From the NCBI RefSeq assembly GCF_964340395.1, contig NC_135555.1, forward strand, positions 8,502,931 through 8,566,930: a stretch of 64,000 nt of DNA, given 5' to 3'. Shown here in pieces: positions 1,096 through 39,244 of the stretch. Made by a program: the position numbers and the translations under genes. Position 1 is the stretch's first letter. Every line of letters starts with the position of its first letter. The notes under the pieces are model-generated. The model was not told the DNA's origin and did not search any database. It was given only the letters and a program-made list of their open reading frames with translations. This stretch comes from Glandiceps talaboti. Lineage: Eukaryota; Hemichordata; Enteropneusta; Spengelidae.

Positions 1096-4000
1096 CGAGC
1101 AACAAAAGATCCTTGAAGAAGCAAGGAAGCTAAGTAAAGCAAATCATAAGAATATTATACGACTGTATGGACTGTGTACAACTCCTGGATTTTATGGTCT
1201 CGTCATGGAATTTGTTGAAAATGGATCCTTGGAAAGGCTACTGAGAGAAGTCAGTGGTGTTGAAATCCCATGGGTATTGAGATGGCGTTTCCTATTCGAA
1301 ATCTGTACAGGAATGAATATTTTACATAACTTGTCTCCACTCAAAGTGCTTCATCTTGACTTGAAAGCAGCCAATATACTTCTTGATGAACACTACACAA
1401 TCAAGGTAAGAATAAAAAGTCCTAGTAGTATTGAGTTCGTTGTGTCTGTGAGCCATAAAAAACTTTTTGATGCTGCATTCAAATTCTTGTGTACATTATG
1501 TTTTACTATCGAAATGAAGACCCAGACTACTTCTGATGGTGTTATTAAGTCATGTCCAATCAATGTTGTTAGTCACCTCACTTTATAAGTTATACAGCTA
1601 TGAGGTCAGAAAACCACACAGCCTTGCAGCAACACCCGGATCCCCCCCTGGGGGGGGGGGGGGGTACCACTAGCCAGATCTGGTAGGGGTGTGTGGCCAA
1701 TGCTGTCAACCCCAGACCCCATTTTGGTACATGTATAACATTTTTTGACTTTTTGATGTATGATGTATTTTCTAACCATTTAGATCCATAATGTATCTGA
1801 TTTAATATACTGCAAAACAGACACACTAATGAGTATCATGAAATATTTTCATAAATTACGAAGATATAAAGTATGTAATTTGCACAAACTGTTTTTCTTT
1901 CTTTCTTCAGATCTCTGACTTTGGTTTGTCTAGGCTGAGATCAGTTGAGAGTTCTGGGATAATGGTAGGTGGTCCAGGAGGAACCGTAACTCACTTTCCA
2001 CCGGAATATTTTGAGAAAGTGAACACTCCAATATCAGAGAAATTTGATGTCTACAGGTATGTACTCCTCATAGTGACTAATTATATTGAGGCATGTACTT
2101 CTGGTAATTGTCTTTAGTCTATCTGAGCATCTGTAGATTCATGTATGTGGTGATATTTAGCCATTAACGCAAATCACGCAACATTGGTGAATTCATTCAA
2201 ATCTCTCACAAATATGAAAGATGAATTAGAATTTATTTTTTTGCACTATAAATGTGAAATAGAGACTGTACTAATAAAAGCTGAACCTGTATTGTCACTT
2301 ATATATTCATGACTATGACCTTCATTTTCATGGTTTATATAACTCACTTTCTTAGACTTCACATTTACAGCTTGATCTGCACAAACCCCAATCTGATTAA
2401 AATCTGATGTGGTGAAAGTGACTAGATGCCTTTATTTATCTCTATTTCCATTGTTTTGTGTAATAAGTTTTGTTCCGAGTGATCGCCATGGGAAGGCAGC
2501 GATCACTTGGCTTGGAACAAAACAAAAGACACAAAACAATGAAAGTAGAAGTAAATAAACTTTGCATCTAGTCGCTTTCACCACATCATATTGCACAAAC
2601 CATTGACTTGTGTGAAGATTTGTAATTTCATAGTCTGTTAGATCAATCCACCTGCTTTTTAAAAACAGTAAAATAACATTTTTAAAAACAGTCCCAAGAC
2701 ATGTACTTGACTATTTGTTTAACTTTACTGCCAGTGCTGCCCCTAACATACTATTAAAGTGAGCCCTGATCCAAAAGTGGTGCAGTGAATATTATGTAGA
2801 TATGTCACATTATTTGTTGAATTATCATCATCAAGTACATGGTTTCACAATTATACAAGAAAATAGGTATGTCAATACCTCTGTAAATTTTGATTGTTTT
2901 TAGCTTTGCTGTTCTGATTTGGGAAATACTTACAAGAGAAGAGCCGTACAAAGGTAAAGACTCAAAAAGTATTAAATATCACATTTCAACCACCATTATT
3001 TCAAAGTATATGACATTTTTAGCAGCTTTTCTAGCAGTAGTGTGAATGTCAAATGTTTCAAGACCAGACAGGTAAATGTCACTGATAATCAGATGCAAGT
3101 ATTAAAAATTAATTTGAAAGTGATTTCTGAATGAATACACAAGTACTCATTTTTATCTTAAATTGGCATTATGATAATATTTCTTTGTTTAAAAAGTGGA
3201 ACAATGACAGCTTTTACCCCCTTCCATGAGGGGACTGTTATGAAGGGGTCCTTGCAACTGTCAGTCTGTGATAATGTTATTTCTCTGACATGCAATATCC
3301 AAATTTCACTCAAACCTGAGACAAAGGTGATATAACATATGGGGCATAATGCACATCACTTTGTTTCACAACATGCAAAATTGACCGAATGGCAGCCATA
3401 TACTACTAGTATAACACATTGATAATCGATTCAAGTGTCTACTCCCATATTATCAGGTGCAAGCACATTGAGAATCAATTCAAGTGTCTACTCCCATATT
3501 ATCAGGTGCAAGCTCTTTAAGACATTGACATGTGACCTTAACCTTCAGGGTCAATCATAGAAATCAAGATATTTTTTGCATATTGCAGACATTTGCGATA
3601 TTGAAGTGTGACCAACTTTTAAACAAATCTTTGGTACTTATATAAAGAAGAAGGGAAATTATATACATGTACACATATTTAATCCATTAGTCACATAGAC
3701 ATAAAGTGTTTAAGGGGACCATGTGGTGCACGATGACATGTCAAGGATGATTTCAAAGTTTTTGTATGATTTTATTGTCAGAGGCAAGAAACAGTGCTCA
3801 TATACAAATAGCAGTTGCAAAAGGTGCCAGGCCAGATCTGGAATCCATACCAGAAGATCTCCCAAAGGACATGATGAAAGAACTGTTGCCATTGATGAAA
3901 AAGTGTTGGCATCAACAGCCGAACAAAAGGCCATACTTTAGAGGTGAGTGAATTTTGATCCAAAATGTACAAATCTTAAGATACTTTACTCAACTGCAAA

Positions 4001-7000
4001 TGTAGGGGAAGGTACTTCTGAGCTTTTTCAGTCAGATGTATTAATAATCAGAAAGATATCACTATAGACTCACTGTTACTACATACTGATTGTATGAGAA
4101 CTTGATGTTACTTTGTGTCATAGATAAAAAGTTCTAGACACAAGTGACTACTTATTAGTGATATACAAATTAGGTTCAAAAACATGTCAATGATTTTTGG
4201 TCAAAAGACACTTTCCATTTTTGTTGTTGTTGAGTTCTTGCATACTTCATTGGAGTTTAAACTCAACTTTGTGTCCTATAGTGTTTTTTTTGTAAGTGTT
4301 ATTAATGGTAACAACATAATCAAAACAGATAAGTTAAAGTTCTCATAATATAATGACTTAACAATTATCTTCAATACATAAACAGTGTAATTAAAACTAC
4401 TGGGATGTATACACATTACCTTGAATTCACATTTCCATTAACTATTTCTGTATCCACTCTTCCTCTGCGCTTCAAGCTCTTTGGAGATGAGGCGCATTAC
4501 AAATCATCTTATTATTATTATTATTATTATTATAATCATTATGAAAACAAACTAAGTAAAATGTCAAAGACTGAAAATATTCACAACAACTAAAACCCTC
4601 AGAAATACTCCAAATGACTAATTTAGTCTAAGGTAGGTATAAAATGTTGGTTTAATGATCTAGAAGGAAATGTTGATTTTTTACAGAGATGCTGGCATTG
4701 TTCACAGACAAGTACAAAAAGAACAAGTCCGCAATACCTACAGCAGAAATCAAGTTACGAGAAGGTCTGGTATGTACACAATAATAAGTTAATTAGTTAT
4801 TAAGAAATTAGAAATCTTTTTGGGAACGAGATGTTGATATACATTGACCTGTACATATGTTGTATGATTTATGTTTGCATACTTGGTGATAGTCTGTAAG
4901 ATACAGAAATTCCAGCCATGTTATCAGCCAGCACTTACAGAAGCCTGATAGGGCTGAACAACACAATGTATCTTAATACACTAAAGTTACAGTTGAACTT
5001 GGTGGAGGATAAGACGAAAAGGATGGTAAAGGACGAATATTCAATTATTATTCATCCTTTTACCCTGTGGTTGAACATTGAAGAAATATGTCCATTGTCT
5101 TAGTTTTGAAATATTTATATGCATTTTGCAAAACCTTGTAAATTATTAATAATTGATTTTATGTAAATGTACATACCAATCAAGTTTACTCTATAAATTA
5201 CAATACAGCAACAGTAATTATTTCAAATTTTCTTTCTTTTAATTTATTAGCTGTGAAATCAACATAGCATTCATATCATACTTTGCAGAACAATGAATTG
5301 CCAGATAAACAATACTGAAATAAATATTTTACAAATATTTTGTCATTAACATCATATGTGGAAATGGTTTGAAAATGGCACCAGAAAAGTAAAATGAAAG
5401 CGAGCAGGTTTTTAAATCTGAATTATTTATGGTTGCTACGTGTGTAATACAATTACTAAGAAAAGGTGAAAGTTTAATGTGTAGATATTATCATTCTTGT
5501 GCAAGTCATTTTTGTAAGCTTAAAATAGATGTTGTTGGTGTGCAATCATCTGATATTATAAAACCATGAGGTAATATTTGCATACAGTACATATAGAGTG
5601 ATGGAGTCACTCATCCTATTAGTCAACCTCATACTCCTCAGTGAGGGTTCCCCCCCCCCCCCCCCCCCATGGTGATAGTTAGGGTCCAGATCTTGGCTTG
5701 GGTACATGATACTATTATAATGGATCTTTTTTCCTCTACAGGAAAGTGCAGGACAAATGGAGCCAGACTTGTGTCTCAGATTTGACAGGGGAATGAACTT
5801 AGTTGATGCTGTGAGAGCTACACAGGAAAGGTTTGGCAGTCTTCAACAGACCAGTTCAAAGTCATCTGGCACAGCTATGGCAGTACAAGATACATGTCCT
5901 GCTAGTATGGGAGGTTATCACCGAGCCCAGCGAGAGCATACACAGGAAGTCACTCCTGTTCAACCAAGTACTTATAATTAATGACTTTTTAATATCAGAA
6001 AATCTTATGTTCACCTTAAATTTGGCCAGTTATTTAAGAAACTGAAATAACCACAAAATCCATACCAACTTCGATTTTTGCACAACTTTGATCGACCGAC
6101 CCAAAGTTGCCATTAAAAAGTAATGAGAAACATATTAGAAAAAAATGCTCGCCCTAAGAAGACTACTTATACTGGTACTACACGTTGTAATATTTATTCA
6201 CAAATGAAACTTGAAAACTTTGACCTTGGATATAAGATGCCAGTAACAATATAAATTTCCCTCATCTCCACTGTAGCTTTTGATTAGCATTTCTTTGTAT
6301 TTCTCCACTCACTGGTTTCTTTTCTTTTCGTCACTGTAGCTGAGCAGGGAGGCAATAGAGAAATGTATAAGTATGTGTATCCATCTGCAGAATCACAGGT
6401 AAAGTCAATGAGAAAATTTATAATGTGTGTATGTATTAGATGGCTAGGTTAAATACACTTTTGAAATACTTATAATGTATTTCTGGGAAAATAATCCAAT
6501 CAGGGCCTTTTATCATTATTAATAGTAATTTTTACCATAGGAAATATTATTTTATACAGTTAAGATATTTGTAATTTAGAGCTGTACATGTTTCTTGTTT
6601 GCTTACCTTGACTTAAAACCTGTGTTGAAATTCACAAATTATAAATTTGAATAAAAGTCACAGCATGACCTTTTGACCTGAAGGCTTATAGTTAACCACT
6701 GTGTCACATCTCATTTTATGAAAATGATGAACACTTTTGAAAGAACTATCTGAAAAAGATAGAATTTCTTTGTATTTGTATCAATTCATCGATTTTCACC
6801 AAAGTATCAGAATTAGAATTGTTCAGTCCCTTCCACAGTTTTATAAAACAACAAATTTGCTTTTGTACTTGCCATACAATAGTTCATATCATTCTATGGC
6901 AGCCATCTTTTTTAAACAAACAGTTGAAAAAGTTAGGAACCTAATTTTTTTATAATAAAGCAACTTTTTTTGTGTGTGTTTCCAGCATACCACATATACA

Positions 7001-10000
7001 TATCTTCAAGATGCAGATACCATTATGATAGTAATACAATAATGTATAATCTTCAGGATGAATGTCACTCAACATAATATTTTGTAGCTTGCATTTGTGA
7101 TTTATTCTTAGTGTTCTTTTTCTAATTGTATTTCAAGGTGATGCAGCAACCCACTGGGATGCAGCAACCCACAGGGATGCAGCAACAACCTATGTACATG
7201 CAGCAACCTATGGGGATGCAACCAATGGAATACAATGCAGTGCAGCAACAGCCAGTGATGATGATGGTGAATCCAAACGCAATGCGTAAGCATTAGGTCA
7301 TTCTAAGTCTTGAGTCAGTGAATCTTGACATCCACCTGCAGTTGTAATTTTCAATATGTATGTGTGTGCATGTGCATGTGTATGCAGAAGGTGTATGTCA
7401 ATGGCAGTGTGTGTCTGTGTATGGCAGTGTGTCTGTGTATGGCAGTTTGTGTCTATATGGCAGTGTGTGTCTATGGCAGTGTGTAAAGGCAAGTTTTAAA
7501 CTGTAGGGCCGATTGTCCTAGTATAGGGGTGGGGTGTTACTTACGGTGTTTATACCTGGAACTGTTCAAATCAAAATGACATACTCAGTCTGGTGTGTGA
7601 TTACAAGTTTGTAAAGATGTTGCAAGCAGTATGTGCATGAAGAATTGTTTAAGATGCTGTGACCTGACAAATATGTAAATTAAGTTGGACATATGTGTGA
7701 TTTTGGTCAAAACATTAACTCCTAGACTGTTATAGACCAATATTTATCATTTTTGATGGAGATGTTTCAAAGGATGTGTAGTGATAGTATACAAAGAAAT
7801 TGACTTTTGTTCAACTAAGCTCAAGATTAAGTTCAGATCAGATCTGAAAGTTGATAATGAGGTTGCTATAGGCATCAAGATGCACCATTGTACAAGTCGT
7901 GGACATCAAATGATAGATGATATGCAAATTGAATTTAAAATTGTAATTTTCAGTAAAAAATCTTGAACTATCAGATGGATTGGTCTGATAGAGTGGGGAA
8001 TGTTTCTAAGGATGTGTTGATGAAGCTTTGTTCATGACAAATGAACTCAATGTTCATATGCAAATTACGTGTGAACATGTGATTTCAGTTAAACATTCTA
8101 AAACTTATAAAAGTACTGCGCATGTTGGTTTGACATTTGGTAGGAATGTTCCTATAGTTGTCTAGATGGTAAATCTTTCAATGTAATTGGGTCTGATCTG
8201 TAACATTAGGTGAAAAATGTGCAAGTTAGTCAAAAATACAGAACTCAGAAAATACTAACACATGGTGAGTGTTGTACTTGAAAGTGATGTTTGAACCGAA
8301 AAAGTGCTGTTTGGCCAAAGACTGTAAACTGAGTTAAATATTTGTTTATTTCTCCATTATTTACATATTAGTTACTTAGCAACAACATAATTGCAGGTGC
8401 TAATTTTTGTAAAGTATATATTCTTAGTAACAAAGAATCTTTATTTACACATAAACACTTGTCTCCCAAGAAGCCTAGTGAGGTTAATTGTGTTAATATT
8501 AACCTTGTAGATAGTTTCAAGTATTGACATTAAACTCCATTGACAAATAGTTGTTTTTCTAAACTAATTGATTTCTTTGAATTGTATTTTTACAGAGCAA
8601 GTTTTCAATGTTCAAGGTGGTATTGGTTTTATGTTTAGTGGACAAGGCAACACACAGAATGTAAATGTGCCACCACCAGCGATGCCTAAGCCAGAACCAG
8701 TGTCACCCAAAGGTAATAACTTTATAGAATAACTTGGAAGTGATTATCACAAGTGAAAATGTCTGCTCATACAGTCAAAAAAATTCTTGGTAGCGGATCC
8801 AAAATTTTTGGCAACATCTTGTCAGCATTAGTGTACCTGTAGTCTTGAGGGATGGCTGATGCTATTACTATTTCTGTGATCTTAACTGCCATTTTTATTT
8901 TTTGAATTTTACTGTTCATTGTATGGGCAATGAAATTCAAAAAATCAAAATGGCTGTTCAGATCATTGAAATAGTAGTGTCAGCTGTCCCTCAAGATTAC
9001 AGGTAGGCTACATCAGTGTTATTTGGGTCCTGCAATGGGCTATTTCATGTGTCTGGGAAGATAAAATTTTGGATTTGCTCTCAAGAAATTCACTCTGTGA
9101 GTATTTCACTTGTAACTATGAACCCAGGGTCTATGAGCATTAATTCTTGAAAAATTATGACACAAGATTAATCGTTTAGATTCTGTTTTGATATGTCTGT
9201 TAGGGTTTGGCTGGTCAATGTTTGCTTCAATGTGAAGTATAGTGATATCATTTCAAAATACATATACCAAAGTGTTTAGCCCTAAGACTTTTTTAAAAAA
9301 ATTGAGTAGTTGTGATCTTGAAGACATTCAGTACAAAAGCAGCAGACATCTTTGAAATTTTCAGTCTCAAAGAAACTGGATATTGAACATGTGCATCTCA
9401 TAATGTTTAAGTTGAATCAGATTAATATCTGCACATTGTGGTAGGCACTCTTTCAAGGAAGGGAAAATAATAGAAGAAATAGTCATCTGATCAACCTTTT
9501 TGTCATGGAAAAAACGGCTGGTTTAATACTGGGCCATATTTTGTTTATAAGATTTTATCGTATACATCCTGACACCTTTGTCAAATGATTAGTATGCATG
9601 GTTTTCTCTGTCACATTTATTTTCTGAATAAATTATATAAATTTTTTATGAACCTTTGGAAGAGTTTTTGAGTTTGAGAGTTTATGTAAGTCATTTGAAA
9701 GAAAATCTTTTTCAGCATTGAACCAAATCCCCATTTTTTTCAGACCCTGAAAAAACAGTGACAAGTAGAGTGCTGCTCGCAATCTCTAAGGAGCTTGGAG
9801 CACAGTGGAAGAACCTGGCCAGGCTTCTTGGGTTTTCAGATGCACAGATTGACACCATCGAAATTGACAACTTCCACTATGGTTCCCAAGAACAAAGTTA
9901 TCAGATGCTGTACAGATGGTACCAGAAGTGTGGAAGTAAGGCCACACACAGAATACTGGCTGAAGCACTGAATGATATCGACAAGAGAGACCTGGTCCAG

Positions 10001-10009
10001 CACTTGTAA
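1096..10009 (+). CDS. RIPK1: RIPK1-like serine/threonine kinase with death domain (5' partial)
   Basis: Receptor-interacting kinases act in the cytosol downstream of death and innate immune receptors. Exons read: 1096-1405, 1911-2056, 2904-2953, 3782-3943, 4687-4769, 5742-5967, 6340-6398, 7138-7285, 8596-8712, 9744-10009. All junctions are in phase, giving 521 residues to TAA. The kinase part shows an alpha-C helix (ILEEARKLSKANHKNI), catalytic loop HLDLKAAN, ISDFGLSR, FPPEYF in place of APE, and SFAVLIWEIL. The catalytic loop lacks the usual Arg (non-RD), as in several innate-immune kinases; human RIPK1 has HKD. A linker follows with MQQP-type repeats (exon at 7138), then a Gln/Gly stretch with NVQGGIGFMF where RIPK1 carries its RHIM. 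The last exon is a death domain (LGAQWKNLARLLGF, QIDTIE, YQMLYRWYQKCG) very like that of RIPK1. The G-loop and beta-3 lysine are missing from the secure exons. The RIPK family call is firm; one-to-one orthology with RIPK1 is likely rather than proven. Confidence 0.87.
1650..1664. repeat. Poly-G tract in intron
   Basis: Run of 15 G preceded by a run of 7 C and one T. It sits in the first intron after the 1096-1405 exon. Similar tracts occur at 5650-5668 (C on this strand) and 43720-43734 (G). It can form a G-quadruplex and is prone to sequencing length error. Confidence 0.9.
2405..2588. mobile_element. Foldback (MITE-like) element, 184 bp
   Basis: Two arms of about 90 bp are near-complementary. 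The left arm begins TGATGTGGTGAAAG and the right arm ends CTTTCACCACATCA; the arms meet around 2490 near GAGTGATCGCC. The arms carry small indels, as expected for an old non-autonomous element. There is no coding capacity and no clear target-site duplication. It lies in an intron of the RIPK1-like gene. Confidence 0.75.
3225..3720. repeat. Dispersed repeat family, copy A
   Basis: Shares a sequence order with 11765-12560: a TTTCTCTGACATRCAATATCC box, a box resembling CACAAAGGTGA, then AAGTGTCTACYC-CATATTAT-AGTGCA. A 58-60 bp part (CAAGTGTCTACTCCCATATT) is tandemly duplicated at 3433-3516. It lies in an intron of the RIPK1-like gene. There is no coding potential and the transposon class is unknown. 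Confidence 0.6.
4460..4545 (+). mobile_element. 3' tail of a SINE or CR1/L2-type LINE with (ATT)n
   Basis: The sequence CTTTGGAGATGAGGCGCATT followed by ACAAATCATCTT and about eight ATT units resembles the conserved 3' ends of CR1/L2 LINEs and their SINEs (a short GC-bearing hairpin, GCGC-A/T-TA-AAAT, then an ATT repeat). Only the tail is evident. It is intronic in the RIPK1-like gene. Confidence 0.55.
5650..5668. repeat. Poly-C tract in intron
   Basis: Run of 19 C. Downstream it shares short words with the flank of the 1650 tract (CAGATC and GGTACATG), so the two may be relics of one repeat family with a homopolymer core. Confidence 0.85.
7375..7485. repeat. GT-rich minisatellite with ATGGCAGTGTGTGTC unit
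   Basis: About five imperfect copies of a 16-20 bp unit, (T)ATGGCAGTGTGTGTCTGTG. It is intronic, just after the MQQP-repeat exon. Confidence 0.8.
8826..9018. mobile_element. Foldback (MITE-like) element, about 190 bp
   Basis: The left arm (from CATTAGTGTACCTGTAG through CTTGAGGGATGGCTGA and CCATTTTTATTTTTTGAATT) is the inverted counterpart of the right arm (AATTCAAAAAATCAAAATGG through TCAGCTGTCCCTCAAGATTA and CTACATCAGTG). The turn lies near 8917-8930. It is non-coding and intronic, just after the exon at 8596-8712. Confidence 0.75.
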
Positions 10010-10063
10010 CGATGTACAAATGATGTGATATGGAAACACAATGCCTTTGCTAAGGTTTTGGCA

Positions 10064-10096
10064 CCATGGTAACAAGAGTTTGGTTACCATGGTAAT
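10064..10096. promoter_or_regulatory. X-box-like palindromes in the RIPK1-like 3' UTR
   Basis: CCATGGTAAC at 10064 and GTTACCATGGTAAT at 10083 form an inverted pair, and the second is itself palindromic. GTTACCATGGTAAT fits the RFX-type X-box consensus (GTNRCC-RGYAAC, last base off). The position, about 75 bp after the stop codon, is unusual for an X-box, so it may only be an RNA hairpin. Confidence 0.35.
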
Positions 10097-10354
10097 GAAG
10101 AGGGGGGTAGGGGAATCTGATAAGACATACCCAGAATCAACAAATGCTTGGTTAAGAACGTCTGTAAAATACCTGTAAAATTGATATAAATTTACCTACT
10201 TGAGTGTCACCCTAAAACAGGTACAGTGGTAAAATTCCTGGGACTCTATTATACCTACAGGTCACCATGAAACACAAAATGTTAAGAACAGCTGTTTAAA
10301 GGCTAGGGGAAAATGTTGTTCATGGTTTAGTTCCAAGAATCATCACTTTGGAAC

Positions 10355-10360
10355 AATAAA
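10355..10360 (+). terminator. Candidate poly(A) signal of the RIPK1-like gene
   Basis: First canonical AATAAA, about 345 bp after the TAA at 10007-10009. A second AATAAA lies at 10669-10674. No transcript evidence is available. Confidence 0.45.
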
Positions 10361-11107
10361 TTTTAAGTAAATTGCCTAATGCATGGTGTTTTGATTCGTT
10401 TACTATAGATAGACTGTAATCATTCTATGTTGCCAAAACTGGCAAAATAATTAAATAGGTCCATACAGGTCATATTAATGAGTTTATGACAAATACAGCT
10501 TTGCAGTAAACATAGTTATTGTTCATATAGTACACCCTTGCACAAACAAACCTTGATTTATTTAGGATCCAGGTTCAACATTGAGTTGAGAATACTTGAA
10601 ATTCTACATTGCAAACTTAGATAATTTCCCATCGGTTTGATATGTGATAAGTGAGAATAGTCAATTGAAATAAAGTTACTATCTTTTCAAGAATTGTAGA
10701 AAGAATGAAAATCTTGCCATGGAGATGTATTATACTAAACAACCTTTGGTATCAAATGCACAATACATGTACATGTTAGTGGTTGATGAATCACTATTGC
10801 TACATTGTCATCAATGAATTCACATGTTCAGTTTTCAGGCTTACAACTTGCCTAGTGGGACAATTACTACCAGGTGTACAGGAGCTTATTAAATGACAAT
10901 ATGATACCGAATTAAGATGAAATTTCACTCATATTATTCGTATATAACCAGACATTTAGCCATGTATTCCTATATAGATAGATAGCTGTGAACTACTCAG
11001 ATACATAAGCTACCATTAGTACAGTCTTTGACCTCAGTGGTCTGAGAGATACACTAGTTTTGCTATTATTTTCATGTTTGTTAGCATGTCAGTATCACAT
11101 TAGTGTA

Positions 11108-11216
11108 GTTCCTGACAACCATGTTCCGATTTTACACTACATTATCTTCACATATTACTAATGTAATGTCATGTGTAAAGATAACAGTATAAAATTGGAC
11201 TACGGTCGTCAGGAAC
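11108..11216. mobile_element. TA-flanked foldback MITE, 109 bp
   Basis: The termini are inverted: the left begins GTTCCTGACAACC and the right ends GGTCGTCAGGAAC. Arms of about 50 bp pair with mismatches. The element is bounded by TA on each side (11106-11107 and 11217-11218), the target-site duplication typical of Tc1/mariner transposition. It is intergenic, 3' of the RIPK1-like gene. Confidence 0.75.
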
Positions 11217-11764
11217 TAGACTGGGAAATAGTTGACAAAATTGACAGTGTCTCATTTAACATTCACTAATTTGTGTGTTGAAAATCTTTGTGAATATTTC
11301 AGTAATTTTCTTTGATTTTTACATCAACAGATATGTTTTTCCCAAGTAAACATACTAAATTGTGTAAAAACACAACATTACAGTCCTATGCCATTAGCCT
11401 TCCAAGTGCTACAATCCCAAGGGTTTACCTGGCGAACTCGGGGTGTCATAAACTTTGTTTGCATCTCTTAAGCTGATTGCAGCGTTACTTACAATAGCCT
11501 AATACTAAAAATTGATAACAACTGATATAACACAGAGAATAACTTTGCCTCATTTGATTTACTCCTTAGAATGATGTTACAGCTGTTTACTTGTGTTATG
11601 TAAGAGCCCATCATCACATTTGTAAATATTGGTACTCTTTGATAACAAGTCCACTTGCTTGGCTAATGGCTTGTTCCTGTCATGAATATTTTTTTAATGT
11701 ATATAAAACTAACATTGATAGTTAATGTAAGTATACAATACTTTAGATTTCAGTACGATATTAT

Positions 11765-13619: not shown

Positions 13620-13624
13620 ATGCA

Positions 13625-13630
13625 TTTTTT
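13625..13630 (+). terminator. RNA polymerase III T-run terminator of the 5S gene
   Basis: Six consecutive T starting six bases after the 5S 3' end, the usual Pol III stop. This supports a real gene unit rather than a 5S-headed SINE, which would read on into a body and tail. Confidence 0.7.
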
Positions 13631-20401: not shown

Positions 20402-20436
<35 letters not shown>

Positions 20437-26400: not shown

Positions 26401-29400
26401 TGTTGACTTGTATGAACTATAGATACTGATTTATTAGTATCACTAAAAATTGATAGCCTAGGTGGTCAATTAGAACATTAACGTCATGCAAATCGTGACT
26501 CTCTTACTGCCATTGCTAATGAATGGCATAATTTTTTAGTTGAAAATGACAGAAACTGGGGTTTACTGCACGTCAATCCATAGTCAGGGATAGGGGATAA
26601 CCAAATTTTGGTGGGTCACAAAAGTTGCTATGCCTCAGTGGTGAGTACAATTCGGCAGAGGGCACACTGATTACTATATAATTGGTGAATGAGTACTTTA
26701 TAGTATGAGAAAGTCGCATAATACCTGACAAGCTGGTTTAGAAATGTATGAAATCTTATATTATAGTATTATATATACCAAGGCTGCAATATCATCTTTT
26801 ATTGAGTATATTTTTACTGCAGATTCTAATTAATTTTAGCAAGTTTTCTTGTTATCGAATAACATGAATTATTTGATTTGATTTTGAGATATTAATGGAT
26901 GATTTCCTGTGGCTGATTATTCAATTTGTATATTGTAGGACGACTAATTTAATCTAATTCAGCTGGTGATACAATGGACAAATGATACACTTGGGTATTA
27001 TATATAATGTAATAAAGTAATATAATGTAAGTATAGTCTGTAGTTGATTATTTTGGGAGATATGTTAAACTCTCACAAGGCACATATATGGCAATTGATG
27101 GGTAAATTTATAGGAAATAAAACAAATGGCAATGAATAAAATTCATCACCTGTCTATTATCTCTTTGATGTTCATAAAGATTAGAACAATGGAACAGTTC
27201 ATATAATATGTAGTGAACATACTGGTGGTTTTTTTTTTGCGTTTTGCAAGAAAAATGATCTACCCATATTTTTTCACATGAAATAAAAAACTACACAGGA
27301 ATAGTAATCTACATGTATAAAGAAAGTGACATATGACTTAAGACAAGATGTTGGTCAAATAAATTAACCAATCTATTTCTCTCATGTCCAGTAACTGACA
27401 TATGTTGGTAGTTATATACATGACAACCTTCACTACCTATTATACACTATTGTCAAAGTACTAACCGTGTCCTTCAATTGACCTCCTTCATTAATTAAGA
27501 ATTCTGACCAGAAATCAGGGTCACAGGTCAACCACTCTGACCTCAATCCTTTTGTAGCTTATTGATTTCTCAATCAATCAATGTATTTGTTTACTCTGCC
27601 TTTAATGCAATATGCAAAAGGTTACTACCCCTATCCACTAAAATTACCATCCCTAACCACTGTTTCTTTAGTGATCTAAGTTAATATCATCATGATGAAC
27701 ATCTGTTTTAGGAATGAGGATAAAGTACATGTTGACATGAAATGTAATCATACAATAATTTAATCAGTAATCCTGTCAAGTTACAAACATATCTGTCACT
27801 TTGCGTACTCAATGGATGTACAGCACTGCACTATACAATAGGAACCACTTCAAAGATGTAACCCTTTTGTAACTCCACGTACACTGTATAGCTATCATTG
27901 TTTAGTATAATCCATACTATATAACTGTAATAACTTTGTAACTCAGCAAGTGTTCACATCAAGTTCAGAAATATCTTACAATCATCACAGGCACCCTAAT
28001 ACTGTTACAGCTATTATCTTGTACATGAACTTGACCTGAAATGGGTTATCTTGACACCAGCATTCAAAAATCGCAAAGGGCATTTTCAAGGGTAATAATT
28101 TAATTTGGCCAAATTAAAAAAAAAATGTGTTTCTGACAACCAAATGGACTCTAGTCTAGCCTCCAACCCTACATATTTTTGAAACATTTAAAACAAAAAG
28201 ATAAGAAATTCTTTGTCTTCTTGACCTTCATGCATGTCTGTTTTCTTTCCCCAGCAATGTCTGTACATATATCATCAAACTATCAAGTAGAAAGGGAATT
28301 CTGACTGACATTTTGTTTGTTTTTGGGTTAAAACAATATTTTTCAAAAATAAACACAATTAAAAAAGATAAAAATAAAATAAAATTTTCTGAGACCATGT
28401 TATTGGAAACACAATTATTTTTTTTTCTTTGCCTTTTATTTGTTTTCACTTATGATTGTACAAACATTTTGGATCTGTGGGAAATTATTTCTGAAATTAT
28501 TTAGTACATTCACTACTTTTGGTTTTGAAATATTTTAAGAGACAAAATAAACATGCCTTAATTAAATGAACAAATAGGTATTTTATTCAAATTACGCATT
28601 TCATTTATAGATAACTATTCAAACCTACACTACATATGCACAACAATTCATAATTTACAAAGGTTTACCAAGAAATGAACAACATGCATTTTACATTTAA
28701 TTTTAATTAAAACAATTTTTAACCATAAACTGACAATGTGGTTAATTCAATGCAAAATGTGCATGTCTTTTTTAAAATTGCATTTTGATAATTAACACTC
28801 GCATCGAGAGCTCCGTTCGTTGTTGCACTTCCGAGTTAAAACAAGAAAGTTCTTTGATACATTGACAGCTGTTACCGAAAGATTTCATTGTTCACTAATC
28901 ATCGATTTCTCATTGACATTTTATGCAATATTGCGCTTAAAAATGTTGGTGTTTTGAAAAGGTGCACAAACAATTTGTAATGAAGAAGTGATAACACAGT
29001 TACTTTTTTCCGGGTCACCAACACGCCCACGTACGTGGTGAAATGAAACTACAAATTTCATTGGCGTGTACGTGGTACGTTTAGCGCTGAAAATATTTAT
29101 CGAGAATATAGAAAATAGTTATTAGCCGATGAGAATCAGAAAAAAATAAGACACCTGATAATTTTGCAATGTTAATATTGCCGAGAATAAATTTGATAAT
29201 GTATTTAACATAGCATTCATAATGAGTAATTGATAGTACTACGAGCATAGCGTAGTGTACACGCACGTATGTTTTAATTTGCTTGTAGCATTGGATCGTA
29301 AATACGTAGGAATACTATGCAACCCGGCGTTTTCGTAACAGCATCGGGTGTTCACTGCTTGCACCGCTAAAATTGCCTAACTACATAATCGAATATCACA

Positions 29401-29538
29401 GCGTAATAGATGAAACATCTAGGTTTGTAACTATGTCATTACATCAAGAAATCAGAGATTATTTAGACACGAAAAATCCACTATAAATCTTACTTCGTAA
29501 ACTTCGGTAGGAGCCGCCATTTTCCCTTCCTCTGGCAT
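19614..29538 (-). CDS. CDYL: CDYL-like chromodomain plus crotonase-domain protein (complete)
   Basis: CDYL proteins are nuclear corepressors: the chromodomain reads methylated histone H3 tails and the crotonase fold binds CoA and partners. Minus-strand exons, in gene order: 29538-29494, 25579-24949 (or 24943 by an alternative donor 6 nt away), 24372-24081, 23632-23506, 22111-21939, 21684-21474, 20705-20562, 19778-19614. All phases match, giving about 595 aa against about 540-600 for vertebrate CDYL. The chromodomain lies near residues 12-65 ([30 protein letters not shown]) with the aromatic cage residues Y, W and Y present. A Lys/Ser-rich linker follows with an NLS-like [10 protein letters not shown] and an acidic run. 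The C-terminal crotonase domain has [12 protein letters not shown] and [20 protein letters not shown]. Unlike human CDYL (SPDG, from memory) it has TPEG, keeping the glutamate used by enoyl-CoA isomerases. A second in-frame ATG at 29520 is an alternative start. Intron 1 is 3.9 kb. Confidence 0.93.
20402..20450. repeat. TG dinucleotide microsatellite
   Basis: (TG)n of about 23 units with one AA interruption, in the last intron of the CDYL-like gene (plus-strand reading). Potential Z-DNA. Confidence 0.95.
23782..24010. mobile_element. Foldback (MITE-like) element, about 230 bp
   Basis: The left arm has ATGACTTCCTACTTGAAAAA then TCACTGTGAAACAACA; the right arm carries the inverted counterpart, TGTTGTTTCATATTGA then TTTTTCAAGTAGGAAGCCAT. 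The inner sequence also pairs imperfectly towards a turn near 23895. It is non-coding, in the third intron of the CDYL-like gene. Confidence 0.75.
29511..29524 (-). promoter_or_regulatory. YY1-like motif at the CDYL start codon
   Basis: Read on the minus strand this is AAAATGGCGGCTC, matching the YY1 core (AANATGGCGGC) with the second in-frame ATG inside it. YY1 motifs that span a start codon close to the TSS are a known metazoan promoter class. Confidence 0.5.
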
Positions 29539-29550
29539 TGACAAAAATAA

Positions 29551-29560
29551 CGCATGCGCA
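29551..29560. promoter_or_regulatory. NRF1-like palindrome
   Basis: CGCATGCGCA closely matches the NRF1 consensus YGCGCAYGCGCR. NRF1 drives many nuclear-encoded mitochondrial genes, which would suit ECI2. Binding is inferred. Confidence 0.45.
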
Positions 29561-29574
29561 CATTCAATGATCGG

Positions 29575-29590
29575 GGCGCACGCACGCGCA
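29575..29590. promoter_or_regulatory. Second NRF1-like GCGCA cluster
   Basis: GGCGCACGCACGCGCA holds two GCGCA half-sites, 12 bp upstream of the ECI2 start codon and spaced from the palindrome at 29551 by about 24 bp. Confidence 0.4.
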
Positions 29591-29596
29591 AGAAGA

Positions 29597-29611
29597 AAAA
29601 GATGGCTGCTT
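29597..29611 (+). promoter_or_regulatory. YY1-like motif at the ECI2 start codon
   Basis: AAAAGATGGCTGCTT resembles the YY1 core AAGATGGCNGC with the start codon inside it, mirroring the arrangement on the CDYL side. Confidence 0.45.
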
Positions 29612-32600
29612 GCAGACGACTCGGGAGCTACTTGGTTGGATCAGTTTTTCCACAAAGTTACAGGTAGGAGTGATTGTACACATGGTATTTTCGAGCAGGT
29701 GACACAAAAATATGAAGGAATCACTTTTATCGTTATTCATGCCTGGGGATTCGTAGCTCGTACGAAATTTACATTTGCACATTGATGCCAGTGACAGTGC
29801 AGTGTGTACAGCAGCTGAGCTAACCATGGCATGGGTTACTAGGCATTGGTGTACTAGAGTATGGATGTAGTATCATGTACTAACTTTTGAGCATCCATGC
29901 AGCGTTCGTATTAACAATTTTCTTGACAACTTCCATAAACATCACCTGCTCATGAGGGATACAATATACCATTGCAGGAGTTATTTTAATTTCAGTTGAC
30001 CCCGAGGATCAATCATCGGTGGGTCTATGCTGAAATCAATGCAGAAGATTTCTTAGTTTTGTGATCACTTCATCCATGGAGGTAGGTCCTCCCTACCTCC
30101 AGTGCTTCATCATTCATTGCTAGCAGTGTATATTGTTATGCAAAACCTTTGTTTTCATTTCATTTTGTTATGCTAAATCATTGTGGTTGAAAAAGTATTG
30201 AGAACAATCCATAAAATAAAACATGTACATGTACCCGCAGGGGCGTGTAATATTTCATAGATTGTTGTTTTCGTATTGCTTAGAATGTCGTTTTCTTAGG
30301 AAAATATCGTACGAATCTTGCTGCTACAAATGTATCAATCTCTATACTACGAAGAAATATTATGTATCATCTAGATGAATGTTATCAATTTAATCAAATA
30401 GTACATAGTCTGAGGACAGTCCGATAACCATTTAATGTTATAGCAACTAAGGTATTCAGTATGTGTTGTATCTTGATATGTATTGGTGTACATTGTAAAT
30501 AGTTATTGCAACATCATCCAACAAAGGTAGGACTCTTGAGAATTTTGTCAAAACATTGCACCCACCTTTAATACTCCAAATGTAGTCAAAGATACATGAC
30601 ACACTGGTTCATTGGTCAGAAACTTTGTTTTAATCCTAGGTCACACCATTAGTGTTATCTTAATGACGATTACATGGGATCATTTTTTGACCAACTTTTG
30701 CTATAGCTCCATTTTTCACAGCAGGATTATAATCCTAATCTGGAATGGGCTTGAGAATATTTCAAAACCTAGTTTCATTGAACCACAGTTTACTGTGTCT
30801 AAATTTTAGTTGGACTGATCCAGGTTCATGTGGCAAACTCTAATGGCAATTACAAAGCAAGATTTAAGTAAATTAACTTTGCTTGATAAGTAATTATTTG
30901 TGTATCAAAAACATTACAACACAAAGAGATGTACAAATATTGAAGTTTTGTGCTGACAGGGATGTCAATAGCAACTAGGCCACAGAAGTGTCTCATCTAG
31001 TTTGGAATGTTCTAAAGTTTCAGTATTTTAAGACAAACAATCTATTATTATTATGATTATCAATCATTTGATAAGGCTTACTCCTAACCCTAACTTGCAT
31101 CAGCTTTTGACCTCTTACTGGGGTCACATGTCTAAAAGGTCACATTTCCTTATTTGGGGTTCACCCTGTATGAAAAGACCTGTGTGGCCAATCAAGTTCA
31201 GGTACATGATACCAGTTTTCTTAAGAGTTTTTTTACAAAAAATAACTTAGTCATTTTTCAAACCATCTGTTGATAATAGTTTGTAAAAAGGATTGCTATA
31301 GCTATGTACAGAACCCCGATACAGAACCCTTTGCACATTGGTCAAAGTTGTACCATAATGTTGGACTTTGTACCAAACAACTGTCTTATCACAGAAAACA
31401 AATGCCTATTTGAAAGACCTGTACCAAGTATATATTTGGTCACAATTGTCCCATATTATTGGACCTTGTACCACTAGATAATAAGTACTGATGCAGAAAA
31501 CAAGGATTCATGCATTGTTCAAAGTACAGAACTATATCATAGTATATGCTGACATGTTGTAATGACAAATACTGCAAAGATGGGAGTATAGATGAAAGAT
31601 ATATTTATTTTTATTGGCAAATAAACATATGTAATATTTTTGCAGAGTATAAAACAAAGTTAAAAACTTATTTCTTTTATGTCCTCTGAACAATTATGAA
31701 CAATATTATATTTAGAAGGAACTTCATAGGCTAATTGGCTATATGACTAAAGTCAGTTTCTCAAAAAATTATTTCTTTTTGATTATGATTTCTTATTTGC
31801 ATATTTTACAGACCTTGTAACAATCTTTCTTTGCAGAATAATCTTATTTTTTTTTATATTTTATTTTATTTTGAATTTGATGTTATGAAAATTTGTTCCT
31901 AACTGCTACATTTCTGAGTGACGTTTACATCATATGTTTTTGGTGTTTGTAGTTTACAAACATTTATGTGTCTGGTATTCATATGCATGATAAATGACAC
32001 ATTAAATCATATCACTACAGGTTGCAGTCTTTCAGACCTATTGTAACAAGTGTAAGAGCAATGGGTGCCATTGACACAGAATTCCAGGGTGCCAAAGACA
32101 AATTGAATACACTAACAGAAGATCCTGGAAATGAGGTTAAGTTGAAGATGTATGCCTTGTTTAAACAGGTACATGTGAATCAGTACTACTGAACATTATA
32201 ATTAATAATAATAATTATTAATAATTAATAATTGAAGCCAAAGACCAAAGAAACTAAGCTCTGTAATTTGAAAAATGTAAGGGGTAGGGTGGGTCACCGT
32301 GGGTGGCATCTTCATTTGGTTGGACAAATAATCTTTTCACTGAAATATTGTTGTAGTCGTGAGTAAAAGTAGAATTTCACCTTGCGTAGGAAGACATGGA
32401 AAGGGGTAGATGACATTTTTGTGACATCATGAAAACATTGAAATAATTTAGCATCAGCATTGTTGGAGTTAAATAGATATGAAGCTCCTAACTTTGTATG
32501 TTTCACAGAACATCTCATTCCAGTGTACAACAGAACTCTTCTAACTTAGCCAGATTAGCCAATTTTCAAAACTCTTTTAGAAAGGAAATATGATGCAGGA

Positions 32601-35600
32601 TTTGTGAAAATAACTTTTCTAGTTCCCCTTACAAATCAGCCTCATCTTCATTTCCTGATCTATAGCTATCGGTATTACAATGTAGAGAATTCCCCTATAG
32701 TGTTTTTAGTTTGTACAACTTCATGGTATTTCTTATATTTGTTTTATTCCAACAGGCTACTGTAGGCAAGTGCAATGCTCCCAAACCATCGGCATTCAAT
32801 TTTGTTGGCAAAGCTAAATGGAATGCTTGGGATTCCCTGGGGTCATTGAGTCAGGTAGGAATACAAAAATAATAATTGTAATACAGTGGTGATAAATAAT
32901 AAATAAGCAACTCAAGTTTAATAATATAAAACCATTTCATAGATTTACATTTCACTTTCTCATTGTCTTTTGGCATGTTGATTGTTATTGTTTCATTTGA
33001 ATGGTAGAATGATTTCTAAACATAGATATAAATTGAATGAATGAATGAATGAATGAATGAATGACAGTGCATTAAAATGATGAAAGCATTATGAATATGA
33101 TGAGAAAGAGGATATCATCTCATCTCATTTCTCTTTAGATTGAATATCAGGTTTATATCTTCTCTTTTCCCCAGGGCATATTTCAAGTTGTATGCTGTAT
33201 TGTAGTGAATATATAGTCAGATAGAGGTTAAGTTAAATTAGGTTTTACAGAATTTACATCCAAATCTTTTATACTGTTATAATTCACTCTGTTCTTTGTG
33301 CCAAACTCTTCTGTATGTCATTGTAAAAGTTTAATGGTTATTTTAATGGTTTTGCTATCATTGTTTTTGTTATGAATTTACGTTTTGAAGTAGACACTAG
33401 AACTTCTCTTATAAAGAATTATAAAGCAACCTGGCATATATCATTATATTATATTGTAGAGTATTGTGTAATTTCTTTTTGTATTGTATCATATCATATC
33501 ATATATCATATCATATCACATCACATCACATCACATTACATTGTATTCTATCACATATCTCTAAAATTTCAGCTGTGTTGGTGCTAAATATACATGTTAA
33601 TTGCATGTTGTCTAGTGGTATAATGCAATTAAAAAAGAAAATATGTATATATGGAGTGAATGCATATTTTCTTTATCCAACAAAATATCGACATGAAAAT
33701 ATGTATAAAAAGCACCATCATTTTTTATTGATTGAAGAATTTTTGTGTAGTTAATAATGTAATCATGTAAAATTAAAACTTATGTTTATAACAGTAATTG
33801 CTTCAAATAAAGGATGATGCAAACTGATAATGTATTGATCTTTCATATTATGATATAAAAAATAAGCTATACTACATTTTTCTAGAAATATAAATAGATG
33901 AGTTACTTGTTATGTGAAGCTGGGAAATATTTTGGTAAATGTTTTGTCAAACTGTTTTTACATGGCATTTTCTTCCCCTGTTATTAGTCAAAATCAGAAA
34001 TAGTAGGTTTATAATTATAATACATCATTTTCATATAGCTCTTCACTGATTTGCTTTGACTATATCATGTAGTATGGACTATTGATCTATATTGACGTCT
34101 CACTTTGCATATAGTGGCACTAGTCATGTTCTGTTTTCCCTAGGGCAGTATTCATGTAGCACGAAGGTCTTATTGGGGATTTGCTTTGACTATAGAAGGA
34201 ATATGTGTCCGAGGATGTGATGTGTTATAAGACACTTATTGCCTGGCCTTATTCAGGCATAAACTTAGTCTCAGGGAAATAGTTGCTACAATAAGTGTAT
34301 AATAATTGGTGATTTTGCCGTTCTTAATCACTTTATAGGATGATGCTAAAAAACAGTATGTTGGCATAGTTAATGATCTACTTCAAGAGGAGGCAGCACA
34401 CAGTGGAGATTCAGCAGCTTCTGGAGAATATAAAACATTGAAAGTGACTGTAGAAGATGGTGTATGTACAATTTTACTGAATAGACCAACCAAGAAGAAT
34501 GCTATCACTGTTCAAGTAAGTCATTTCTGTATAGGCATACATAGTAGGTGTCATGTTTTGTGTTTAAAAGTTTAAGCAGACCATAAGTAGATCATACTGC
34601 ATGTTGTCTATCCAGTATGTATACACATCAAAAGCAGACAAGAAAAGAAGACCACCCTATTGCTGATATGCAAAGTGGATTGTGATAAAATAACACCTAG
34701 GTGACTTTGAAAATCATGTAAAGAAGTTCAACCATTTTGAGGATTTTCTGCAAGGGATTATTGGGAAAACTGTTGTGGTGACATCATTAATACACCCTAA
34801 TCACTTTGTCTTGACACCATACAAGAAAAGTACATGATGTATATATCAAAACTTTGACATCACTGTATACATGACACTTTGCCTTTCTGCATGTTTTGAC
34901 TATAGTATTAATTTTTGCTTACACTTTTTAATCCCTGATGGGCAAAGCCGAGGGGGACTACTATGTTGGTTCAGTCCATGTGTCCATGACCACTTGTATC
35001 TCTGAAATGCATGCCCCAATCTCAACCAAACTTGGCACAAATGTCAGATATTATAGTCTGCATAAGAACATCACTTTGATTCTTGACCTATGTGGCCATA
35101 TTTGTTATAAAATTCACATTTTGCACACTAACTCTAGAAGCTTGATTGATCATTTAAATAGGTTGAATCGTTTTTATCCACCAAATACTATAAAGAATTT
35201 TAAAAGTATGTGCATTTCAAAGAAGAAGTTACTAGGATAGACACCTCATTTGAATGTCTACACTCATGTTATCCGTGACAAGCTTTCTAAAGAGAACTTG
35301 ACCTGTATGTTCAAGGTCAAATGGCAAAAAATGTACAAGTGTTTGTGTTCACCTCTGACATGCATGGGTAGATTTCAACCAAACCTACCATAAATGTCAA
35401 ATAAAGTAGTCCACATAAAACATTACAGTAACTGTAATACTACCTTTGCAGTTACATGCCACATGGTGACCATGTTTATTGTAAAAAATTTGTTTGCCCT
35501 CAAACTCTGGAAGTTTAATAACTACAGAACTCATTTGAGTGTCTCCACCATGTTATTCATGATGAGCTTTCTACTGATCTTGAACTTTATGTTAAAGGTC

Positions 35601-38600
35601 AAATGACTCAAAATGTTCAAAATATTCTTGTATACAAATTACCTCTGACATGCAAGGACTGGTTTCAACCAAACCTGGCACAACTATCAGATTATGTCCA
35701 ATTATGTGCATCACTTTATTTCATGATCTTCACAATAACATAGTCGTACAAATTCAGATTATGCATAAGTTGAAACGTTAGAGGGTATGTCTATGACAAT
35801 CTGTGGATGTTTTGTTAATATTTCAGATGTATGAAGAAGTAACAGATGCATTGAAAGCTGCAGGTGAAGATTCCAAGGTTGTGGTAGCTGTTATAACAGG
35901 TATGTTTAGTTTTAAATGATCTACACTTTGCGGTAGTTGTGTAGCACTCTGTGATCAGATGTCTACAAAACAGCTGACATCACTGAGAGAGAATTGTTGA
36001 TTGTCAACTATTAAAATGATGAAACTTAAAATATTTGTCAACAGAGTTTCTACACAAGATACCTAAATAAGTAGAAATCATGGATATAAAACTCCTAACT
36101 GTGATATTGTGTTTTTATCATATTTGTTTAGGTGCTGGTGACTTCTACTGCTCTGGTAATGACCTAAGTAACTTTGCCTCCATACCAATGGATAAACTAC
36201 ATGAATTTGCTGTGGATGGAGCCAAACTCCTTGAGTAAGAGAACTCTCTTATGTTTTAAGTTTCAACCAAAAACTACATGTACAATAGGTATATATATAT
36301 AGGTAAATTCTGATCCTCTCCTATTTACACAGCCTCTAAAATCAGATCATTGTTGTCCACGTAATATATTGAGTACATGTTGATGTCTATGATTGGTTGA
36401 GAGTCAATATCATCAAACTTGTATGGTAATGTCTCCCAGAGTTTATCAAGTCAAAAGACTGAATACTATTGATGCTGAAACTACAGCCTGTTAACAAGAG
36501 ACAATAAACTTGGGTTTTTGAGATTTTCTATCGGATTGGTTAGAATCAAAGTGATCATAGCCACATTTAATAGATGTGCTAATAGTCTGATGAATATCTG
36601 AACACTGAAGAACGAACTGAAGAGAAGTCTGTTCAAACAGGCATTCAGTTTGGATTTACCTTTGTAAGTGCTATTGAACAAATCTAGTGTTTTGGAAACT
36701 GGCACATTATAAATCATTTTTGATAGTGTTAGATTGATATGAATATAATTTACTATTAGTGAATGGAGCAAAATGTCATCATAGATTCTGAAGTAAAAAT
36801 AAATCACTAGTGTAAAATTTTTATCAAGTACTATTTCACGCTTTTGTCGTCATTTTTTTTGCACCCCAGTACTTGTATGTATGGTGACTGTCATAATTTG
36901 TGCGTTATTCTCACACAGGTATTTTATGTTAGGTTTCATTTTATTGAATATTTGCTAATTTTTTTGATTGTTCCCACACAGGCGTTTTGTATCAGCCTTC
37001 ATCGACTATCCCAAGCCTCTGATTGGTGCTGTGAATGGTCCAGCCATAGGAGTTGCTGTCAGTACACTTGCACTGTTTGATGTTGTCTATTGTACAGATA
37101 AGGTAAGGTATATCATGTGACAAACTATTCAAAGAGCTAATACCATGAACCTTATAAATTAGGTTATTTAGTATTATGAGAAACAATTAAGAATTCCTTG
37201 CTAAAGTCTTTGGAATGATAATCCGGTAGTAAGTTCATGCCATTCCTAAAACAAGTTGATCCTCTTTCTCACAACTTGTACTTTAATAGTTGTGTACAAA
37301 CAAATACCCCTAGGGAGAAAGAGGATAACTTAGAGTGCTAAACATTTCATTTCTCAACATGACTACAATTCAATACTTTGATATTCAATACAGGTACTTT
37401 GAAAAATTCATGCAAATCATTTGGGCATAAAGATGTTACTGTGTGCAGAATCAAATTCAATTTGATGAGTCATTACTTTATTATTGTTTCATTGTTGTTA
37501 ACTTTTAATTTTGATGGTAATCTGTTAAATCCAATTTATAATAATTATGTCAGTGTGCTTATTATGCCTTTTATCTTAATATAATTGATAGAACTGCATT
37601 TTATGGGCGTGATTGTACTGTTTGCCATTTCTGAGTGCATGCAAATCAATGGTCTTATTTTGACCTTATTGTGTGTGTTTTGTACTCACTGTCAACTTTC
37701 CATAACCCAGTCGCTTTCTAGGACAAAACTTAAATGATTTTTATCCACATATTGATAAGTAATGTAATCTATTTATTTGTATTGGAAGGCCACTTTCCAA
37801 ACTCCATTCACAGCTCTAGGACAAAGTCCAGAAGGTTGTTCATCTTTCCTGTTCCCAAGAATTATGGGACAAGGCAAGGTAAGCAGTCGTTGGGTTTCAT
37901 GCAGATCTGACCTTGAAATCTAATCTCCATGAATTATATTTTCTGTTTAGTCTTAATACCCAAATACATACATCAGATATTATGACCAAAAGAAAACAAT
38001 TTTTTTATCATAAATCCAATCTTATGAAATTGTTGTCTAGCAGTCTAGACTTGTTCAAGTATTTTTCATATTTTATTTGAATAATTTTTTTTAAACACAA
38101 GTTTGTTCTTTTATGTGTCATAATGATCTGAGTCACAGTGAGTGATTGTGAAACATTGGGGTGAACAAGTATAGTCCTTGAGAGACTACTAGTAACGCCA
38201 GTAACTGGGACGTGAAAAAATAAGAAATTTCAAAGTTCACATTTTTCTTTGCAAAACTAATGAATAACAAACTCAAAACGATTGAAGATTGTGAGACAAA
38301 AAAAAATATGCCAAGGGACTGGTGCCAGTCTACTAACAGTTACAAATTGATATGTAACCAGTTTTATGTCTTTCTCAGGCTAATGAAATGCTCCTATTTG
38401 GCAAAAAGCTGACTGCTCATGAGGCATGTGAGAGAGGTTTAGTAGCTGAAGTCTTCCCAGATAGCCAGTTTCAGACAGAAGTACAGAAAAAGATCAAAGA
38501 ATATGCAGCTCTACCAAAGAATGTAAGTATGCATTACAGTTATTGAAATTGTTGAAATATATCAAGGGCTGGGGCTGGGGAAGGGGTATTTATGTCTTTT

Positions 38601-39244
38601 ATTTAGAAAGTCCACTGAGAAGTGCTGCTAGAATACTCGTATATGCATCCGTACCAAACATTATAAACCATACCATTCCAAACATTATAAATCTAAGATA
38701 AATATATCTCTTTTTAGACAAAACATGAACAATTGATAACCCCTAAGCCTTTTTCCAAATTGAAGTACCCGGTAGTCTTTGTACAGCAAATTAAACGGCT
38801 CAAATAACTAAGCAATATGATATGATACAGTACCAACATTCCAAGAATGGATGATCTATATGAGAAGGGAGTTATACTGCAAGTGTTTTTCATCAGTAAT
38901 GTGTAATGCACAGGCAAGATCAATGTTTTGTTAACCGGAAAAATTCTTGGCTTGATCATTCGTATTCATCAACCTATATGTAAGCTCTGTGATATTGAAC
39001 AAAAAAAGTGTTTGTGACAAACCAGCTATACTAGTATTTCTGTTTTATGCTTTAATACATGTATTTAACCTATCTGGTTCACTTGCAGTCTTTGAAGTTT
39101 TCCAAGAATTTGGTCCGTGGTGTTGACAAAGACATTCTACACAAGGTGAATGATCAGGAGTGTGAACTACTGATAGAGAGGTGGACGTCTGATGAATGTG
39201 CCCAAGCTGTTATGAATTTCTTTTCCAGAAAAGCCAAGTTGTAA
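29602..39244 (+). CDS. ECI2: Enoyl-CoA delta isomerase 2 (ECI2), ACBP plus crotonase domains (complete)
   Basis: ECI2 moves 3-enoyl-CoA double bonds to the 2-trans position so that unsaturated fatty acids can enter beta-oxidation, in mitochondria and peroxisomes. Exons: 29602-29663, 32021-32168, 32756-32854, 34339-34515, 35827-35899, 36132-36234, 36982-37102, 37789-37878, 38379-38522, 39089-39244. All are in phase, giving 390 aa (human about 394). The N-terminus ([15 protein letters not shown], then Arg-rich with no early acid) fits a mitochondrial transit peptide. The ACBP domain lies near residues 42-125 ([25 protein letters not shown]). In the crotonase domain, [12 protein letters not shown] and [10 protein letters not shown] form the oxyanion hole, and [11 protein letters not shown] carries the catalytic Glu. 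The C-terminus RKAKL ends in AKL, an accepted peroxisomal PTS1 variant (human SKL). It shares its promoter with the CDYL-like gene. Confidence 0.95.
33033..33064. repeat. GAAT/TGAA tetranucleotide microsatellite
   Basis: About seven TGAA units, in an ECI2 intron. Confidence 0.9.
33488..33541. repeat. CATAT/CACAT pentanucleotide repeat
   Basis: TCATA-type units change to TCACA-type units within about 50 bp, in an ECI2 intron. Open frames across it are repeat artefacts. Confidence 0.85.
34935..35790. repeat. Dispersed repeat family, copy C (tandem internal modules)
   Basis: Starts GATGGGCAAAGCCGAGGGGG then ACTACTATG. Modules reading CTCTGAAATGCATG / CCTCTGACATGCA with TTCAACCAAAC and CACAAATGTCAGAT recur three times (near 35000, 35360 and 35640), with CATTTGAATGTCTAC and CAAGGTCAAATGGC boxes between them. 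Boxes and order recall copies A and B but with more divergence. It lies in ECI2 intron 4. Confidence 0.55.
36600..36725 (+). mobile_element. Decayed 3' end of a CR1/L2-type non-LTR retrotransposon
   Basis: One frame reads [18 protein letters not shown], resembling the FK-x-LKTxLFxxAF end of CR1/L2-type reverse transcriptases. It is followed about 50 bp later by GGCACATTATAAATC, like the 3' end of such LINEs. It is short and diverged, in ECI2 intron 6. Confidence 0.35.

Follow-up and report, generated by a model that had tools for sequence, protein, structure and literature searches.

The window analysed here (the whole 64,000-nucleotide stretch) corresponds to C8:8502931-8566930 of the Glandiceps talaboti genome (590 Mb in 47 contigs). 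Exon models were built by hand from open frames and AG/GT junctions, with the sequence alone as the source, and AG/GT was present at every internal exon junction. The gene models and the interval between two of them are as follows.

1096-10009, plus strand: exons 2-11 of a RIPK-family kinase and death domain gene (572 aa, 11 exons)
1096-1405, 1911-2056, 2904-2953, 3782-3943, 4687-4769, 5742-5967, 6340-6398, 7138-7285, 8596-8712 and 9744-10009, plus strand: kinase exons 2-11 singly
C8:8502472-8502623, plus strand: kinase exon 1, 459 to 308 bp before the window
29520-19614, minus strand: CDYL-like gene (589 aa, 8 exons), open joined frame with Chromo and ECH_1 domains
29520-29494, 25579-24949, 24372-24081, 23632-23506, 22111-21939, 21684-21474, 20705-20562 and 19778-19614, minus strand: CDYL-like exons
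29602-39244, plus strand: ECI2 gene (390 aa, 10 exons) with ACBP and ECH_1 domains and the C-terminus AKL
29602-29663, 32021-32168, 32756-32854, 34339-34515, 35827-35899, 36132-36234, 36982-37102, 37789-37878, 38379-38522 and 39089-39244, plus strand: ECI2 exons
29521-29601, no strand: putative shared promoter, the 81-bp interval between the CDYL and ECI2 start codons

In the formin gene pieces at 52100-58404 (minus strand), Pfam matched FH2 three times and a PH domain once, in agreement with the nearby PHCF formin mentioned in the preliminary description of this DNA, and beside the formin exons lies a 707-aa long open frame (58855-60978) built from a tandemly repeated unit of about 23 codons. 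One flank holds a WD40 exon and a Gs-alpha-like exon and the other flank, by Pfam, an Na+/H+ exchanger exon; the resemblance of the WD40 exon to SEH1 and of its neighbour to Gs-alpha was judged by eye and is presumed.

Divergent CDYL-like and ECI2 genes had been described beforehand, and this was borne out: both are predicted to be complete genes, transcribed divergently from start codons at 29520 (minus strand) and 29602 (plus strand) with 81 bp between them. The CDYL-like protein gave Pfam matches to Chromo (PF00385, 60.2 bits, residues 8-59) and ECH_1 (127 bits), and the ECI2 protein to ACBP (PF00887, 95.4 bits) fused to ECH_1 (PF00378, 149.1 bits). Against solved structures, the ECI2 model scored 327 bits with ECI2, 195-192 bits with CDY/CDYL and 154 bits with the next one, and the CDYL model scored 281 bits with CDYL, 275 and 267 bits with CDY, 217 bits with ECI2 and 114 bits with the next one, its crotonase domain being nearer to CDYL/CDY than to ECI2 (281 versus 217 bits). 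The CDYL/CDY structures (2gtr, 2fw2 and 2fbm) and the ECI2/PECI structures (2f6q and 4u18) are taken by us to be human.

The window ECI2 resembles ECI2/PECI in its ACBP and isomerase domains, in the SPEGCSS stretch (putative isomerase) and in an identity of 57.8% over 256 aa, and is unlike it in ending with AKL instead of SKL and in lying head-to-head with CDYL at 81 bp; no second ECI2-like gene was present among the 15 matches of the own-genome search. AKL can act as a peroxisomal C-terminal signal, and the end of the window protein is a putative signal of this kind. The available text of PMC7057175 presents ECI2 as an isomerase of peroxisomes and mitochondria. The CDYL-like protein has the chromodomain followed by the crotonase-like domain of the CDYL/CDY family, which also supplies its closest solved crotonase relatives, and CDYL/CDYL2 are its listed chromodomain matches. 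Unlike that family, it keeps Glu (TPEGC) where CDYL/CDY have Asp (SPDGC), and no second copy was found among the 41 own-genome matches listed (74 of 131 candidates scored). This site would be the oxyanion-hole residue for which the available part of PMC6385973 names Asp for CDYL and Glu for fly HIPP1. The chromodomain of CDYL (window 25579-25430) has many long-frame matches elsewhere in the genome, on many contigs and in frames of up to 1463 aa (55-58% over 42 aa), which are probably retroelement chromodomains; intron-split chromodomains could score lower in this search, and no origin of the chromodomain is claimed.

The CDYL-like gene and ECI2 are identified as ancient paralogues. Their crotonase halves are identical at 118 of 273 positions. 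Over the aligned part CDYL has 5 introns and ECI2 has 6, and 4 of these coincide in both position and phase, with P about 4e-9 under random placement. With ECI2 as the query, the strongest non-self match in the own genome was the adjoining CDYL-like exons (57% and 52%), followed by matches of 26% or less. A 5-sequence tree without outgroup gave 100/100 support to the split between the window CDYL, human CDYL and CDY2 on one side and the window and human ECI2 on the other, which is what a duplication older than the separation of Glandiceps and human would produce. Other crotonase genes, at C8:23.14 Mb and C6:23.8-23.9 Mb, have match borders that hint at one or more of the same introns, so the intron evidence may predate the CDYL/ECI2 duplication. 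The structure scores, the 4 shared introns and the own-genome best match together rule out the earlier view of these genes as unrelated. The paralogy is already in print, PECI and CDYL being tabulated in the available part of PMC3091328 as paralogues duplicated before animals diverged. According to the available text of PMC6385973, fly HIPP1 is a CDYL homologue, three splice junctions are common to Cdyl and Hipp1 and only one, which tells against the intron evidence, is common to Cdyl and a PECI-like fly gene, and the neighbours of Hipp1 in fly are, per a figure legend, CG3634 and CG3618. In the literature searched, no account of a head-to-head linkage of CDYL and ECI2 was found, going by titles and abstract openings.

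The 81-bp interval was also searched with two patterns, which we take to represent NRF1 and YY1 motifs; both were picked after the stretch had been read, and their matches are not proof of function. A single NRF1-like match was found in the whole window, with 0.04 expected; it has one mismatch and lies at 29579-29590. The YY1-like matches, 6 in the window against 0.14 expected, include one at each start codon (29513-29523, minus strand, and 29599-29609, plus strand). The CpG observed/expected ratio at 29200-29699 was 1.27, which ranks 44 of 635, the window mean being 0.39. It is likely that CDYL and ECI2 share one promoter. Most of the highest CpG observed/expected values in the window fall in a repeat-like stretch at about 39900-42500.

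The end of the kinase gene is 9.6 kb from the end of the CDYL gene. Its protein has an N-terminal kinase and a C-terminal death domain by Pfam, as do RIPK1 and those invertebrate RIP kinases that carry a death domain. No Pfam match to RHIM was obtained with the protein or with its linker alone (E up to 10, with filters that drop many weak matches), as in the RIPK1 of Ambulacraria and amphioxus according to the available text of PMC11507063. Unlike RIPK1, the window protein has a kinase domain which scores nearer to RIPK4 and RIPK2: among the best 60 of 2590 matches, the order by family was RIPK4 (212 bits), RIPK2 (188 bits), RIPK3 (155 bits) and RIPK1 (143 bits), and a chain named as EGFR (9p9u, 152.8 bits) ranked between the last two. 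The death domain gave 55 bits with RIPK1 and 40 bits with Ankyrin-2 as the next. The name 'RIPK1-like' given in the preliminary description fits the death domain and the architecture and not the kinase domain, and exon 1 is outside the window; the gene is a relative of RIPK1 and is not clearly its orthologue.

For the linkage with human 6p25-p24, seven marker family profiles were queried, chosen for usable profiles, and the genes behind them are presumed to be WRNIP1, RPP40, EXOC2, GMDS, SSR1, FARS2 and NQO2. The best matches in the genome were located as follows.

C8:4.37 Mb: WRNIP1 family
C8:5.63 Mb: SSR1 family, a single 52-residue match
C8:6.18 Mb: GMDS family, exons scoring below the whole-protein cut-off
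C8:6.58 Mb: FARS2 family, 67 bits, with a weaker second match on C10 (35 bits)
C8:11.87 Mb: RPP40 family
C17: EXOC2 family, with one further match on C16

The NQO2 family gave no match in the own-genome profile search, and GMDS, SSR1 and FARS2 were assigned by profile match and not by tree. Five of the seven queried markers, that is five of the six found, are on C8, which makes up 4.76% of the genome (binomial P 1.4e-6 from the genome share of the contig; 2.5e-5 for four of five). Together with the window, the five markers span 7.5 Mb of the 28.1-Mb C8 (P 0.006 under uniform placement, post hoc). PRPF4B was also sought among the C8 kinases; of the seven C8 matches, which include the window gene, three were compared by eye with the presumed PRPF4B letters, and none of these three looked alike. 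In human, ECI2 and CDYL presumably lie near each other and are divergent. The genes run RIPK (plus), CDYL (minus) and ECI2 (plus) in the window, versus RIPK1, ECI2 and CDYL when the OMIM genes of human 6p25.3-p24.3, as given in Table 2 of PMC7479479, are read down the columns. The human block is thus matched in that CDYL, ECI2 and the best matches for WRNIP1, GMDS, RPP40, SSR1 and FARS2 are on one contig, and is not matched in that EXOC2 is on another contig, the NQO2 family was not found and the order is changed. A linkage as in human 6p25, as proposed in the preliminary description, is accordingly retained at chromosome scale, with the order not collinear.

The nearness of the kinase gene to CDYL may be due to chance or ancestral. 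The case is evenly poised for the view that the kinase was kept only at chromosome scale and came to lie near CDYL-ECI2 by chance in Glandiceps talaboti, which agrees with the spread of the C8 markers from 4.4 to 11.9 Mb and with the position of EXOC2 on C17. When extended to the whole trio, chance leaves the 81-bp head-to-head arrangement of CDYL and ECI2 and their shared introns unexplained; when confined to the kinase, it is compatible with the explanation preferred below for the CDYL-ECI2 pair. According to the available part of PMC9573974, amphioxus and vertebrates have no similar genes around RIPK1-5.

A rather doubtful reading, of some weight nonetheless, takes the window kinase for a RIPK2/4-like duplicate bearing a death domain and sees the true RIPK1 counterpart in a second RIPK-type locus at C8:7551522-7567218, 0.95 Mb from the window gene, where two kinase pieces were found with a death domain between them (76 of 262 candidates of the own-genome RIPK-type listing scored). 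In its favour, besides the RIPK4 and RIPK2 scores of the window kinase, one kinase piece of the second locus ranked RIPK1 first (106.8 bits; RIPK3 90.6 and RIPK2 88.8 bits), as did the death domain of that locus (47.7 bits). The other piece was near a tie (RIPK1 45.3, RIPK2 44.9 and RIPK4 43.7 bits), and the death domain of the window gene was slightly closer to RIPK1 (35/81 identical) than that of the second locus (30/79), both of which speak against it. Among the matches listed, at least six related kinase fragments or exons on C10, C18 and C26 were 46-58% identical to the window kinase, and none of the matches listed was a death domain within 1 Mb of them.

The kinase tree was constructed from 17 sequences, two of which were one-exon fragments and four outgroup kinases from the own genome; the region used begins near residue 51 of the window protein and extends as far as the DVY stretch. 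Six paralogues from C10, C18 and C26 of the own genome formed one clade with the window gene (97.2/89), as the duplicate reading would have it. Against that reading, human RIPK1 fell with the outgroups (86/89) and with neither C8 locus in the best tree; the RIP kinases thus did not form a group of their own, and this part of the tree is weak. By identity, RIPK1 was no closer to the piece of the second locus (37.7%) than to two paralogues of the window clade (40.0 and 39.7%), the window gene itself being at 35.4%. In AU tests on the 17 sequences, the window kinase as the sole partner of human RIPK1 was rejected (p 0.013), and grouping the window kinase, the pair of the second locus and RIPK1 gave p 0.018 and that pair with RIPK4 p 0.063. 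The window clade with RIPK1 (p 0.113), which would make the whole clade co-orthologous, was not rejected, nor was the pair of the second locus with RIPK1 (p 0.233) or with RIPK1 and RIPK3 (p 0.232), so that the test favours neither locus; the window clade gave p 0.267 with RIPK4 and p 0.295 with that pair and RIPK1. A position of the kinase outside RIPK1, named in the preliminary description as telling against its proposal, was hence found in part, for RIPK1 alone and not for RIPK1 with the whole clade.

An ancient microsyntenic block of three unrelated genes, one of them a true RIPK1 orthologue, kept together by shared regulatory sequence is improbable, since the presence of all three families on one contig here and of RIPK1, ECI2 and CDYL in the 6p25.3-p24.3 list of PMC7479479, the RIPK1-type death domain and the post hoc clustering within 7.5 Mb are set against the paralogy of CDYL and ECI2, the rejected pairing of the window kinase with RIPK1 alone, the RIPK1 top ranks at the second locus and the changed order. 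That proposal is better replaced by an inverted duplication together with old macrosynteny.

The explanation we consider probable is a conserved piece of animal chromosome, the one which became human 6p25-p24, containing a CDYL-ECI2 pair that arose by inverted duplication. An ECI2-type enoyl-CoA isomerase gene would have been copied in inverted, head-to-head orientation, and the crotonase part of the copy would then have been joined to a chromodomain to give CDYL. The two genes would still stand back to back, 81 bp apart and probably firing from one shared promoter, while in human they would be near each other and divergent but spread out; the adjoining kinase would come from a RIP-kinase family with further members on C8. 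The duplication in place is deduced from the present layout, and a later rearrangement could instead have brought CDYL and ECI2 together. Duplication in place gives the best account of the close CDYL-ECI2 linkage, and old macrosynteny that of the wider linkage. Tentatively, and with slightly less than even confidence, the locus may be regarded as the birthplace of CDYL, from an inverted ECI2 copy and a chromodomain with one promoter still shared, and the C8 kinase and death-domain genes as synteny evidence for an invertebrate counterpart of RIPK1, which the amphioxus comparison in print (PMC9573974, as far as available) did not find.

According to the available text of PMC6385973, CDYL proteins are co-repressors with crotonyl-CoA hydratase activity, and fly HIPP1 is dispensable for viability and is without a functional chromodomain. 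The absence of similar surrounding genes in PMC9573974, taken with the C8 markers, suggests looking at chromosome scale, and evidence at this scale bears on the origin of RIPK1. For CDYL and ECI2, the question is then no longer why unrelated genes remained linked but how a metabolic enzyme gave rise to a chromatin regulator beside it. The locus is a place to test the co-regulation of the two genes, and if the proposed origin is true, a chromatin reader and an acyl-CoA enzyme would be expressed from one switch.
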